Part shown: positions 33,528 through 37,733 of the stretch, one piece after another | Numbering within the stretch: the stretch's first letter is position 1 | Layout: the number at the start of each line of letters is the position of its first letter | Made by a program: the position numbers and the translations under genes | The notes under the pieces: model-generated | What the model was told of the DNA's origin: nothing | Database searches by the model: none | Seen by the model: only the letters and a program-made list of their open reading frames with translations | Assembly (NCBI GenBank): GCA_018400755.1 | Contig: JAGYLU010000013.1 | Span: forward strand, 1-41,406 | DNA: 41,406 bases | Source: Acholeplasmataceae bacterium | GTDB lineage: Bacteria > Bacillota_I > Bacilli_A > Acholeplasmatales > Acholeplasmataceae | Reading direction: 5' to 3'

Positions 33528-33551
33528 TTGACACCGATGGTGTGATATAAT
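33528..33551 (+). promoter_or_regulatory. extended -10 promoter of the cdaA operon with an inverted repeat in the spacer
   Basis: TATAAT (33546-33551) is preceded by TGA (extended -10). TTGACA (33528-33533) is only twelve bases away, too close for a normal -35. ACACC-GAT-GGTGT (33531-33543) is a perfect inverted repeat between the two and could be an operator. Confidence 0.5.
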
Positions 33552-33575
33552 GACAGTGAAAGGCGTTGACGACAT

Positions 33576-34319
33576 ATGTTTGGCGTTCCCATCTGGAAAA
33601 TCCTCATTGATTTTTATATTGTTTGGATTGTTGTCTTTTTTGCCGTCAAGTTTCTTGTCAAGAACAAACGGGTCTTCAATATCGCGTTGACATCGCTTTT
33701 TGTCTTTGCCTTATGGATTGTTTCCGGTTTGTTGGACCTTTCAGTCAGTCGGTCAATCCTCGATGTTGCCATCCCCTTGTTACCACTCGCAGTCATTGTC
33801 ATCATGGCACCTGATCTTAGACGCGCGCTTGAGATGTTCTGGAAACGGGATGTCAGAAAAGAATCGTTTGTCATGGGGAACGAACGCACCAAGGAAAACA
33901 TCATTGACGCCGCTCTTGAACTCTCTTCAAAGAAGACCGGCGCACTGATTACCATCGAGAAGCATAACACCCTGGATCAATACGCCGAACGGGCCATCAC
34001 AATGAATGCGGATGTGACCAAGGAAGTGTTGGTCAATATTTTCACACCACTATCACCGCTGCATGATGGCGCAGTCATCATCAGGGGCGATAAGATTCTA
34101 TGTGCCGGTGCCTATTTCATTTTGTCTGACAACCAGAACTTTGACAAGACCATGGGGTCAAGACATCGTGCTGGTCTTGGAATCAGCGAAGTCTCAGACA
34201 GCATGACCATCATCGTGTCGGAAGAAACGGGATTGATGTCGATTGCCATCGAAGGCATCATGCTTAGAATCAATGATCGTGAGAAGTTGACGGAATACGT
34301 CAACATGTTCATGAAGTGA
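33576..34319 (+). CDS. cdaA: diadenylate cyclase CdaA
   Basis: Makes the second messenger c-di-AMP from two ATP at the membrane. The 247 residues begin with three membrane helices (about 8-25, 36-53, 62-78), followed by the DisA_N/DAC catalytic domain. The catalytic motifs are present: DGAVI at 164-168 and RHRAG at 196-200, followed by GISEVSDSMTIIVSEETG. In most Bacillota cdaA is followed by cdaR (YbbR domains) and glmM; here the following genes are a small membrane protein and a PAS/GGDEF-like protein instead. The ATG has only a distant AAAGG, so the start could be weak. It is the first gene of a plus-strand operon that seems to extend to ispDF. Confidence 0.95.
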   Translation: MFGVPIWKILIDFYIVWIVVFFAVKFLVKNKRVFNIALTSLFVFALWIVSGLLDLSVSRSILDVAIPLLPLAVIVIMAPDLRRALEMFWKRDVRKESFVMGNERTKENIIDAALELSSKKTGALITIEKHNTLDQYAERAITMNADVTKEVLVNIFTPLSPLHDGAVIIRGDKILCAGAYFILSDNQNFDKTMGSRHRAGLGISEVSDSMTIIVSEETGLMSIAIEGIMLRINDREKLTEYVNMFMK

Positions 34320-34327
34320 GGACCATC

Positions 34328-34504
34328 ATGAAAAAGTTTTTCAGATTTCTGGCCGACCCCATCCGTTCGGTAGGCCGAAATGACATCACTGACATCATCA
34401 TCGACCTTTTGTCAAAACATCCCGCGATCCTCGCGTTTTTTGCCTTTCTTATCACACTCGCCATCATGGCAGCAACCTACGTGCTGCCGCATCTGAGGGG
34501 GTGA
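34328..34504 (+). CDS. small membrane protein in the cdaA operon
   Basis: A 58-residue protein with a basic, amphipathic N-terminus (MKKFFRFLADPIRSVGRND) and one hydrophobic helix near the end (AILAFFAFLITLAIMAATYVL). I recognise no family. The ATG at 34328 has GTGAGGA upstream and follows cdaA by eight bases; the next gene starts three bases after its stop. Its place between a c-di-AMP cyclase and a membrane PAS/GGDEF-like protein suggests a small subunit or adaptor of that system, which is inference. Confidence 0.7.
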   Translation: MKKFFRFLADPIRSVGRNDITDIIIDLLSKHPAILAFFAFLITLAIMAATYVLPHLRG

Positions 34505-34507
34505 CGT

Positions 34508-36094
34508 ATGCTCTTCCAACATCCGATTTATCCACTTATCATCGCAGTCTTTATTGTGGTGCTGGTTATCATTCAAAGCATCCAGAGCGAGAGGGTCCTG
34601 AAGAACAGATTTGTTGTCGCGAGCTTGACCCTGACCATCTCAGTGATGGTCTTTGTTATGTATTACCAAAACGATCTGATTGAAGACGAAGGTCTCTTCA
34701 AAGAACTCTATATCGGGTTCACATTCTATAGCTACGCCTTGTTTTTGCTGGTCCTATATTCGACATTCAAAAACGCCATATTGAAGGCCAATCACTACCA
34801 ACTGTTTGTCAAAGCCATCAGGAACAGCAAACTGAACGCCTATTATGTCGTTGACAAACGCGAACGGATCAGGGACATGTCCCAAAGCATCCTCGACGAG
34901 ATTGGTCTCGAGAAAGAAGATGTCATCGGAAAGAAATTGTTTTCAGTGTTGAACAAGACCATCAGGTTCACCCATTTCAACCAGACCGATGTCAACAACC
35001 GTTCACTCGAACACTATTTTCTGGAGTTCAGGAAAAACGCCAAACCCGGAGATTCTGAGGAACAGGAACTCACCTTCTTGAACAGTGAAGGAAACCCGGT
35101 CATTTTACATCTGATCATGCAACCTCTGTTTGTGCTTGGAAAATATCGGGGACGGATCAATGTCGGCGAAACGAAGACCGATTTTGATATGCTTGCTGTT
35201 GAAAAAGAGCTCAAGGAACGAAACGATGAGCTCGAGAGCATCAGACACAAGTTTGTGGCGACCCTTGAAATCAGCGAGGAAGGGCTTTTCACCATCGATC
35301 TTGATGACCGGACCATCTGGGCAAGCGATGCCTTGGTCAAGGCTTTGGGTCTTCCCGCCAATCTCATGGACTTGACTGACTTCAGACGCCTGATTGACCC
35401 TGATGACCTGAAACAATACATCACGGTCCTAAGTGAGCTCAATATCAACCGCAGCACTTATCAGACCTCTTACCGGATCATGGTTGATGGTCAGCCCAAA
35501 TGGTTCAGGGAGAAAGGCAGACGGATCTTCGAAGACCGGAACAGCACAGTCATCATGGGAACCCTCAATCCGATGAAGACCAGACACTACATGGCCAGCG
35601 AGATCGATGAGCTCGACGGACTCTCTGACCATAACCGCCTGATTGTTGATATGCGCAAGCTTTTTGACGACAACAAGTATTTCCAACTGGTCGTCTTCAA
35701 TCTCAAGAACATGCCTTCCGTCAACGACAAACATGGACGCGAGGTCGGCAATCTCCTGATGGCAGAATATCTGAAAAACCTTAGAAAATCGTTTGTCACC
35801 GAACGCGGTGACATCTACCGGATCACAGGAATTGAATTCGCGATGCTCATCACCGATCCCCGCAAGATGGACATGCTCAAAGCCGGGATCCACGGCAACA
35901 AGACCTATCTGAACTTTGAGATGCATTACGGCTCGATCTACGCCGAACTTGAAGTCTACGCCGGAATCGCGATCAGCGCGACCGATCATATCGACCCGAA
36001 CAAACTCTATCAGGCCGCGAAACAGGCCTTGAAGATTGCTGAAAATCCCAAGTTTGATGGTCAAGGATGTTATTATAAGGACATCAGCCAATGA
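34508..36094 (+). CDS. membrane PAS-PAS-degenerate GGDEF protein
   Basis: A 528-residue protein in the cdaA operon. Three membrane helices (about 8-25, 36-53 and 67-86) are followed by a PAS-like domain (98-225), a second PAS-like domain (245-355, with EGLFTIDLDDRTIWASDALVKALG) and a C-terminal GGDEF-like domain (365-525). In the latter, the first metal Asp is Asn398 (VVFNLKN), NDKHGREVGN is kept, and the GGDEF signature is TGIEF at 440-444, so diguanylate cyclase activity is unlikely. The general order resembles the N-terminal half of GdpP, the c-di-AMP phosphodiesterase, but GdpP's DHH/DHHA1 domains are absent: the protein ends after the GGDEF-like domain. I infer a sensor regulating CdaA or c-di-AMP. 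Confidence 0.8.
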   Translation: MLFQHPIYPLIIAVFIVVLVIIQSIQSERVLKNRFVVASLTLTISVMVFVMYYQNDLIEDEGLFKELYIGFTFYSYALFLLVLYSTFKNAILKANHYQLFVKAIRNSKLNAYYVVDKRERIRDMSQSILDEIGLEKEDVIGKKLFSVLNKTIRFTHFNQTDVNNRSLEHYFLEFRKNAKPGDSEEQELTFLNSEGNPVILHLIMQPLFVLGKYRGRINVGETKTDFDMLAVEKELKERNDELESIRHKFVATLEISEEGLFTIDLDDRTIWASDALVKALGLPANLMDLTDFRRLIDPDDLKQYITVLSELNINRSTYQTSYRIMVDGQPKWFREKGRRIFEDRNSTVIMGTLNPMKTRHYMASEIDELDGLSDHNRLIVDMRKLFDDNKYFQLVVFNLKNMPSVNDKHGREVGNLLMAEYLKNLRKSFVTERGDIYRITGIEFAMLITDPRKMDMLKAGIHGNKTYLNFEMHYGSIYAELEVYAGIAISATDHIDPNKLYQAAKQALKIAENPKFDGQGCYYKDISQ

Positions 36095-36612
36095 AACAGG
36101 CGATCAGAATGTCCATGAAAGCCCTTCGGTCATCGCTGTCCGAAGCGGATGTCAAAGCCCATTCCGAGGCGATCATCCAACAGATTGAAGCCTTGCCTTA
36201 CTTTGATGACCTTTTGGTGATCGGGTCGTATATGGCCTTCAATAACGAAATCGACCTGTCCGCGCTTGTTCATCCGGATGCGGTCATTGTCTATCCGAAA
36301 GTGGATGGGGATCATATGCACTTTATCCATCCCCAAGTCCCCGACGCCTTTTCAAGAAGCCCATTTGGCGTGATGGAACCGACAAAAGGCGTCATCATGG
36401 ATGATGTCATCGATCTTTTGCTGGTCCCGGCCCTCGCCATTTCTTCTGATTGTCACCGGATCGGATACGGCAAAGGGTATTATGACCGGTTCTTGAAGAC
36501 CAACCGCCCCAAACATGTCATCGGTGTCATCCACGACATCCAACGGATTGATTCGTTTGATTCAGGACCCGATGACCAGAGACTCGATATGGTTCTCACG
36601 GAGAAGACATGA
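36091..36612 (+). CDS. 5-formyltetrahydrofolate cyclo-ligase
   Basis: Converts 5-formyl-THF to 5,10-methenyl-THF using ATP. The 173 residues show the family's key segments: an N-terminal basic helix, VIGSYMAFNNEIDLSAL, VIVYPKV, SPFGVMEP and the glycine-rich signature CHRIGYGKGYYDRFL. It starts within the last four bases of the PAS/GGDEF gene (ATGA) and overlaps ispDF by four bases, so all three are probably translated from one message. The family gene is variously called fau, ygfA or yqgN, so no symbol is given. Confidence 0.93.
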   Translation: MKQAIRMSMKALRSSLSEADVKAHSEAIIQQIEALPYFDDLLVIGSYMAFNNEIDLSALVHPDAVIVYPKVDGDHMHFIHPQVPDAFSRSPFGVMEPTKGVIMDDVIDLLLVPALAISSDCHRIGYGKGYYDRFLKTNRPKHVIGVIHDIQRIDSFDSGPDDQRLDMVLTEKT

Positions 36613-37733
36613 ACACAGCCGTTATTGTTGCTGCCGGCGCCAGCAACCGCATGCAATTGAATCAATCAAAGGTGCTGATTGACATCGGTGGGAAACCGAT
36701 GGTCATGCACAGCATCGATGTCTTCAGGGCCTTAGGCTTTGAGATTGTGGTCGTTGCCGCGAAAAGCGACATCGAACGGATGCGAGATTTCATCAACGAT
36801 CTCGCGGTCAGGATTGTCCAAGGGGGACGAACCAGGACCGAAAGTGTCCGTCTTGGTCTGATGGAAGTCTCAACCCCTTACGTCTTTATCCATGATGCCG
36901 CCAGGCCTTTGATCACCAGACATCTTGTTGAGAGAATTGAGCGTGCCCTTGAACTTCACGATGCCGTTCTTCCGGTGTCCAAGGTGACTGATGCACTCAA
37001 ACATGTCGTCGGCAAGACCGTTACCGATCTTGACCGTGAGGCTTACATGATGGCCCAGACCCCACAAGCGTTTCTGACTGAGAAAATCAGGTATGCGCAT
37101 ATCAGGGCGGATGGCCCATACGATGATGACATCAGTCTTTATCGGTCGTTTTATCCGGAAGAAGAGATCGCCATTGTCGAAAACGATCAACCGAACATCA
37201 AAGTGACAGTCTCTGATGATCTCAAAGTCTTACGCGCACTCATTGAGGAGGAACCTCCCTTGCGAATTGGTCACAGCCGAGATCTTCACCGCCTCGCAGT
37301 GGATCAGACACTGATCCTAGGCGGTATCACCATCCCTTATGAGAAAGGCCTTGTTGGCCATAGTGACGCCGATGTCTTGTTGCACACCATCGGTGAGGCC
37401 ATGCTTGGAGCGCTCGCCTTGGGTGATTTGGGCACTTACTTCCCCGATGACGATGAGACCAAGCGGGGCCAGTCATCGGTTGTGATTGTCAAACGAATTT
37501 TGGATATGGTCAAGGGTGAGGGCTATCTTCCCTCAAACATTGATGCCACAGTCTTTGCTGAAGCACCCCGGTTGAGCCCACATATCCAAGAGATCAGGGC
37601 ATCGATTGCATCAATCCTTGAGATGCCCCTCAAAGATATCAGTGTCAAAGCAACAACAAACGAAACCATGGACGCCATCGGCCGCGGCGAAGCAATCGCC
37701 GCTGAAGCCGTCGTCCTCATGAAGAAGGTGTGA
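36609..37733 (+). CDS. ispDF: bifunctional IspD-IspF (MEP pathway)
   Basis: A 374-residue fusion of two non-consecutive enzymes of the non-mevalonate isoprenoid pathway. IspD (about residues 1-213), the CTP:MEP cytidylyltransferase, has VIVAAGASNRMQLNQSKVLIDIGGKPM, GGRTRTESVRLGL, FIHDAARPLI and LDREAYMMAQTPQAF. IspF (about 217-374), the MECDP synthase, has RIGHSRDLHRLA (the usual RIGHGFDVHR is altered, but the metal-binding Asp and His remain), GLVGHSDADVLLHTIGEAMLGALALGDLG, and KATTNETMDAIGRGEAIAA. The linker is very short. The two enzymes are usually separate in Bacillota. Confidence 0.95.
   Translation: MNTAVIVAAGASNRMQLNQSKVLIDIGGKPMVMHSIDVFRALGFEIVVVAAKSDIERMRDFINDLAVRIVQGGRTRTESVRLGLMEVSTPYVFIHDAARPLITRHLVERIERALELHDAVLPVSKVTDALKHVVGKTVTDLDREAYMMAQTPQAFLTEKIRYAHIRADGPYDDDISLYRSFYPEEEIAIVENDQPNIKVTVSDDLKVLRALIEEEPPLRIGHSRDLHRLAVDQTLILGGITIPYEKGLVGHSDADVLLHTIGEAMLGALALGDLGTYFPDDDETKRGQSSVVIVKRILDMVKGEGYLPSNIDATVFAEAPRLSPHIQEIRASIASILEMPLKDISVKATTNETMDAIGRGEAIAAEAVVLMKKV

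Follow-up and report, generated by a model that had tools for sequence, protein, structure and literature searches.

A conserved cdaA operon with a one-helix protein and a membrane PAS-PAS-degenerate-GGDEF protein at the place of CdaR in Acholeplasmataceae and their relatives

Introduction

Cyclic di-AMP (c-di-AMP) is a signal for salt and water balance. How its membrane cyclase CdaA senses the osmotic or metabolic state of the cell is an open question in the field (PMC10243994). In the systems studied, CdaR contacts CdaA via the membrane domains (PMC10243994, PMC6368335), and GlmM binds the CdaA catalytic domain (PMC10243994, PMC6368335, PMC8573169) and inhibits CdaA by blocking CdaA oligomers (PMC8573169). 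A stretch of 41,406 nt from an Acholeplasmataceae bacterium (GCA_018400755.1, contig JAGYLU010000013.1, forward strand; here called the window) carries a cdaA gene that is followed by neither cdaR nor glmM. The locus raises the question of what occupies the place of CdaR and what this could mean for the control of CdaA.

Results

Layout of the cdaA operon

The initial annotation of this DNA described cdaA followed by a gene for a 58-residue one-helix protein (sml) and a gene for a 528-residue protein (P3), and all three genes were found where it had placed them (Table 1). The interval that it assigned to the operon, 33528-36612, does contain these elements, but its right boundary is simply the end of the 5-formyltetrahydrofolate cyclo-ligase (5-FTHF cyclo-ligase) gene, and the operon runs on into ispDF. 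The genes abut or overlap as described, with gaps of 8 nt between cdaA and sml and 3 nt between sml and P3, and 4-nt overlaps between P3 and the cyclo-ligase gene (36091-36094) and between the cyclo-ligase gene and ispDF (36609-36612). No Rfam element was detected near cdaA, a tRNA being the sole Rfam match in the window, and a promoter and terminator scan returned about as many sites as shuffled sequence. The 5-FTHF cyclo-ligase and ispDF genes are operon neighbors, and the cyclo-ligase is outside the control module proposed below. Among relatives the presence of the cyclo-ligase is independent of P3, and ispDF is frequently absent from genomes that retain P3.

Table 1. Features of the cdaA operon and the separately encoded GdpP of the same genome.
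Feature	Position	Strand	Support
cdaA, membrane diadenylate cyclase, 247 aa	33576..34319	+	TIGR00159, DAC
sml, 58-aa one-helix protein, ATG at 34328	34328..34504	+	profile, AF2
P3, 528 aa, TM3-PAS-PAS-GGDEF	34508..36094	+	Pfam, AF2, Foldseek, residue conservation
Pseudo-GGDEF domain in P3, residues ~377-527	35636..36088	+	alignment, conservation
5-FTHF cyclo-ligase	36091..36612	+	PF01812 E=1e-26
ispDF fusion	36609..37733	+	IspD + YgbB domains
GdpP-L9 fusion	L056:1315-3747 (G000:C189)		

CdaR is missing and the CdaA membrane domain is changed

The absence of CdaR from its usual place, now held by sml and P3, extends to the whole genome and beyond. No YbbR domain is present in the window genome, so a cdaR located elsewhere can be set aside, and none of 61 relatives yielded a YbbR/CdaR match. 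A set of 295 genomes of the phylum contains 52 with YbbR and 42 with P3 (counting long P3 matches only), and the two overlap in no genome and no family. This mutual exclusion is backed by few independent events, because it follows a few family-level splits. The classical cdaA-cdaR-glmM order was present in all ten CdaR-bearing loci that were read over their full length. The window operon resembles this classical operon of Bacillota in that cdaA heads a tight operon and the next product has one membrane helix; it differs in that a YbbR domain is missing and glmM does not follow, with the 58-residue protein and a TM-PAS-PAS-pseudo-GGDEF protein instead. The cut-off for GlmM was passed by no genome among the window genome and 40 relatives. 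About half of this set encodes a full-length relative that scores below the cut-off. In the window genome the sole candidate is a distant relative of 584 aa.

The cyclase itself is well defined. CdaA scores 198.6 bits against TIGR00159 over residues 9-241 (curated cut-off 188.8), Pfam detects the DAC domain with E=3e-37, and the DGA and RHR motifs are readable in the sequence, with D164, G165 and R196-H197-R198 invariant across 30 relatives. It is the product of the sole DAC gene of the genome. CdaM of Mycoplasma is likewise a c-di-AMP cyclase of a wall-less bacterium, but NCBIfam assigns the window protein to the CdaA type, and its score with the CdaM model is 121.6 against a cut-off of 225.

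The membrane domain is another matter. The window CdaA, in which three N-terminal hydrophobic segments can still be seen, is not matched by the CdaA_N model (PF19293) that recognizes the CdaA of the classical operon. Of the CdaAs from CdaR operons, 12 were tested in full length and all match CdaA_N (11 above the cut-off), against none of 30 CdaAs from lineages that lack CdaR, whereas DAC scores are alike in both groups. Given the reported contact of CdaR with this domain, the part of CdaA that changed is the part that CdaR contacts. The divergence could be plain lineage drift, at least in part, since CdaA of a genus with reduced genomes (g8), which has no P3, also fails to match CdaA_N.

The cdaA-sml-P3 arrangement is conserved

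The gene neighborhood proved to be conserved in relatives. Within the order 57 cdaA loci were examined; in 54 of them an sml-type gene of ~49-71 codons follows cdaA, and in 50 of these P3 follows sml. The three loci without sml all belong to genus g8 (genomes of 0.7-0.9 Mb). The four sml loci without an adjoining P3 comprise three genomes of family f2 and one contig end; where P3 was found in f2, it lies with the cyclo-ligase gene and ispDF, away from cdaA-sml. P3 identities across the conserved loci range from ~68% to under 30%, and retention of the gene order in 50 loci despite this divergence is well beyond chance. P3 matches were obtained in 55 of 61 genomes, a count that includes weak GGDEF cross-matches. 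A profile search of genome contigs returned nothing with a single P3 query; an eight-member alignment recovered 34 named Acholeplasmataceae loci, and sml directly precedes P3 in all 34, which include Acholeplasma laidlawii, A. oculi, A. granularum and Peloplasma aerotolerans. Apparent P3 matches on plasmids were distant GGDEF/EAL cross-matches only. In-frame TGA codons flagged in alaS of relatives were nothing more than the usual ATGA overlap of a stop codon with the start of the following gene.

The reduced g8 genomes keep cdaA and lack sml, P3, the cyclo-ligase and ispDF, so that cdaA abuts a DegV-like gene.

Linkage of cdaA to P3 is also found in other families of the phylum (f10, f22 and f26), where sml is absent and the P3 relative follows cdaA either immediately or with one or two genes in between. 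The P3 relatives of f10 are TM-PAS-GGDEF proteins of ~375-420 aa, and those of f26 are full length. The presence of the pair in these families indicates that the cdaA-P3 link predates the order, that sml is specific to the order, and that one branch can do without the GGDEF domain. This last point concerns f22, where the protein after cdaA (loci L125, L126) is TM-PAS-PAS without GGDEF, a natural deletion that may reveal which part of the protein is required. A separate feature of f10 is a gene for a 700-780-residue FAD-type protein (VIIGGGLGS motif) that often separates cdaA from the short P3 relative and holds a conserved position (loci L115, L116, L117, L118, L119, L121). One genome of family f17 carries P3 without cdaA nearby.

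P3 is a membrane PAS-PAS protein with a degenerate GGDEF domain

Pfam and AF2 bore out the predicted architecture, in which three membrane helices precede a pair of PAS domains and a GGDEF domain, and DHH/DHHA1 is missing. Pfam places PAS_9 at residues 110-208, PAS_3 at 270-348 and GGDEF at 377-513 (E=1.4e-10), and does not detect DHH/DHHA1. The AF2 model (mean pLDDT 80) has helices at 7-27, 32-54 and 62-106, followed by PAS, PAS and GGDEF. Foldseek retrieves PAS-PAS-GGDEF proteins, among them DosP and PA0861, as well as the DgcB GGDEF domain, and the ordinary Pfam GGDEF model matches 27 of 28 P3 members, so the GGDEF fold is present. P3 thus shares fold, domain order and general Pfam models with PAS-GGDEF diguanylate cyclases of the DosP/PA0861 type, and differs from them by its lost metal and signature residues and its genomic tie to cdaA. 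Heme or flavin binding by the PAS domains was considered and is unsupported, because no His or Cys is among the positions conserved at ≥80%.

Alignment to a solved GGDEF domain places P3 Asn398 at the metal Asp, Lys400 at the following Asp and Ile442 at the signature Asp, with TGIEF (440-444) on the GGDEF signature. The degeneracy first noted for this one protein is seen in all homologues inspected. Among 52 of them, position 398 is R, E, K, N or S, with D in 5, and position 442 is L, I, S, V, P or T, with L and I predominating and D and E absent; shorter P3 relatives show like losses at the catalytic positions. The metal Asp is mostly gone and the signature residue is replaced throughout, so catalysis is not expected in any P3 homologue and the domain is classed as a predicted pseudo-enzyme. 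Other positions are retained: N406, G414, R438, G441 and F444 are invariant in 28 aligned P3 members, and N415 is nearly so. By comparison with PleD, N406 and N415 presumably stand at the two guanine-contacting positions, of which the latter is Asp in PleD. Retention of N406 together with the Asp-to-Asn change at N415 suggests, at the level of the alignment, a purine pocket with altered preference.

The genome encodes a separate GdpP

Of the two genes that the initial annotation took to count against its reading if encoded elsewhere in the genome, a cdaR and a full GdpP, the second is present. A complete GdpP is encoded on another contig with its C-terminus fused to a complete ribosomal protein L9 (Table 1), and it matches both PAS_GdpP and GGDEF_GdpP. 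An ORF of similar length (~815 aa) occurs in most relatives, which suggests, from the single fusion sequence read (that of the window genome), that the GdpP-L9 fusion is kept across the order. GGDEF_GdpP was found in 58 of 61 relatives and PgpH in 0 of 61, and two DHH/DHHA1 proteins of ~315 aa are also present in the window genome.

sml is a small one-helix protein specific to the order

AF2 predicts sml helices at 2-15, 18-30 and 32-57, corresponding to two short N-terminal helices with an invariant proline (P11) and one membrane helix at ~32-57. Strong matches to the sml profile within the order adjoin cdaA, and no convincing match was obtained beyond the order.

Discussion

A regulatory module at cdaA

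The cdaA-sml-P3 arrangement is a real and conserved variant of the CdaA operon, undescribed so far as is apparent, rather than a relative of GdpP. The open-licence papers searched on Acholeplasma and c-di-AMP and on CdaA with PAS/GGDEF operons contained no description of such a module. Its retention across a whole order in place of CdaR makes sml and P3 probable parts of CdaA control, and we lean toward the explanation that they replace CdaR as regulators of CdaA, the three genes forming a regulatory module. CdaA would make c-di-AMP at the membrane, and the sml helix would pack on the CdaA membrane helices as the single helix of CdaR does elsewhere. With its three-helix bundle and PAS domains, P3 may sense the state of either the membrane or the cytosol; little of the protein lies outside, so sensing would face the cytosol and the membrane. 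The GGDEF domain, no longer making c-di-GMP, may bind a purine nucleotide, given that the base-contacting Asn is kept. P3 would relay this state to CdaA, perhaps by promoting or hindering the oligomers that CdaA requires for catalysis, and the way GlmM blocks these oligomers (PMC8573169) makes a similar steric mode plausible. Physical contact, the direction of control and the ligand are elements that we infer. Loss of sml and P3 in g8, where cdaA is kept, is as expected of an optional regulator. Acholeplasma-type bacteria lack a cell wall, and wall-less cells may need no extracytoplasmic YbbR sensor, which is our guess as to why CdaR was lost.

Alternative explanations

Three other origins or roles of P3 were weighed. 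In both P3 and GdpP the membrane helices come first, then PAS, then a degenerate GGDEF; this shared order led the initial annotation to a GdpP-like sensor, and P3 might accordingly be a GdpP-derived regulator that lost its hydrolase. The domain order stands, but kinship in sequence was rejected: none of 28 P3 members matches PAS_GdpP or GGDEF_GdpP, against 27 that match ordinary GGDEF, and a P3 profile aligned with the GdpP of the same genome reaches an HH probability of 1.8%. P3 also differs from GdpP by its three membrane helices, two PAS domains and missing DHH/DHHA1, and a true GdpP coexists with it in a genome whose relatives nearly all have GGDEF_GdpP already. What the two proteins share is limited to an analogous domain order, and descent from GdpP is very improbable. 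An active diguanylate cyclase that couples c-di-GMP to CdaA would fit the GGDEF fold and general PAS-GGDEF order, but no homologue inspected keeps the third signature residue and very few keep the metal Asp, losses that led us to reject this reading as scarcely credible. P3 could instead be co-transcribed with cdaA but act as a sensor outside c-di-AMP, linked to the downstream folate and isoprenoid genes or to cell-wide c-di-GMP signaling. Its separation from cdaA in f2 and f17 means that it could serve the cyclo-ligase/ispDF neighborhood: f2 and f4 genomes keep P3 beside the cyclo-ligase-ispDF block, and f17 keeps it beside ispDF. Acholeplasmas have other GGDEF proteins (PMC2408644). A distance-correlation (mirror-tree) analysis was uninformative, as CdaA-P3 performs no better in it than CdaA-cyclo-ligase. 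On the other side, P3 persists where the cyclo-ligase or IspDF was lost, which counts for the link to cdaA, it directly adjoins cdaA in f22 and some f10 genomes, and its GGDEF domain cannot be a cyclase. We consider this co-transcribed role unlikely.

The origin of sml bears on the replacement of CdaR by sml and P3 as a refinement of it and not as an exclusive alternative. sml may be a stripped-down CdaR that lost its YbbR domains and kept the pre-membrane stretch and the CdaA-contacting helix, with P3 added as the sensor. It occupies the operon position of CdaR, and CdaR N-termini of family f14 (...RFLTTPS..LG....LDH.YES.LRNE...K.LAL...) score better on the sml profile than their order-shuffled versions (p 0, 0.0025, 0.005). 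In the reverse direction, the best of 2012 ORFs on a profile of five f14 CdaR N-termini is an sml protein, and sml proteins outscore TM-matched controls on that profile, although this group test is inflated because sml proteins are mutually related. The HH alignment of sml with f14 CdaR (E=3e-4) spans 53 columns, nearly all of sml, and sets Pro on Pro; 2 of 200 shuffles equal its score, but the HH probability is just 38%. CdaR families other than f14 give no signal, and a whole-genome search with the sml profile fails to single out CdaR. A general resemblance of sml to CdaR N-termini is weak apart from f14, and descent from CdaR is possible but somewhat doubtful.

Significance

The whole order, which lacks CdaR, retains a minimal one-helix protein, a cytosol-facing sensor and a changed CdaA membrane domain. 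This arrangement may separate the part that contacts the membrane from the part that senses, and both parts are testable in a cultured organism, A. laidlawii. The data suggest that control of c-di-AMP outlived the loss of CdaR in these lineages. A bolder proposal, on the unlikely side in our estimation, is a new CdaA control complex in which a bare CdaR-type helix joins P3, whose Asn pocket would read a purine nucleotide or c-di-AMP and thereby set CdaA activity. If true, this complex would be the missing c-di-AMP input in wall-less bacteria.
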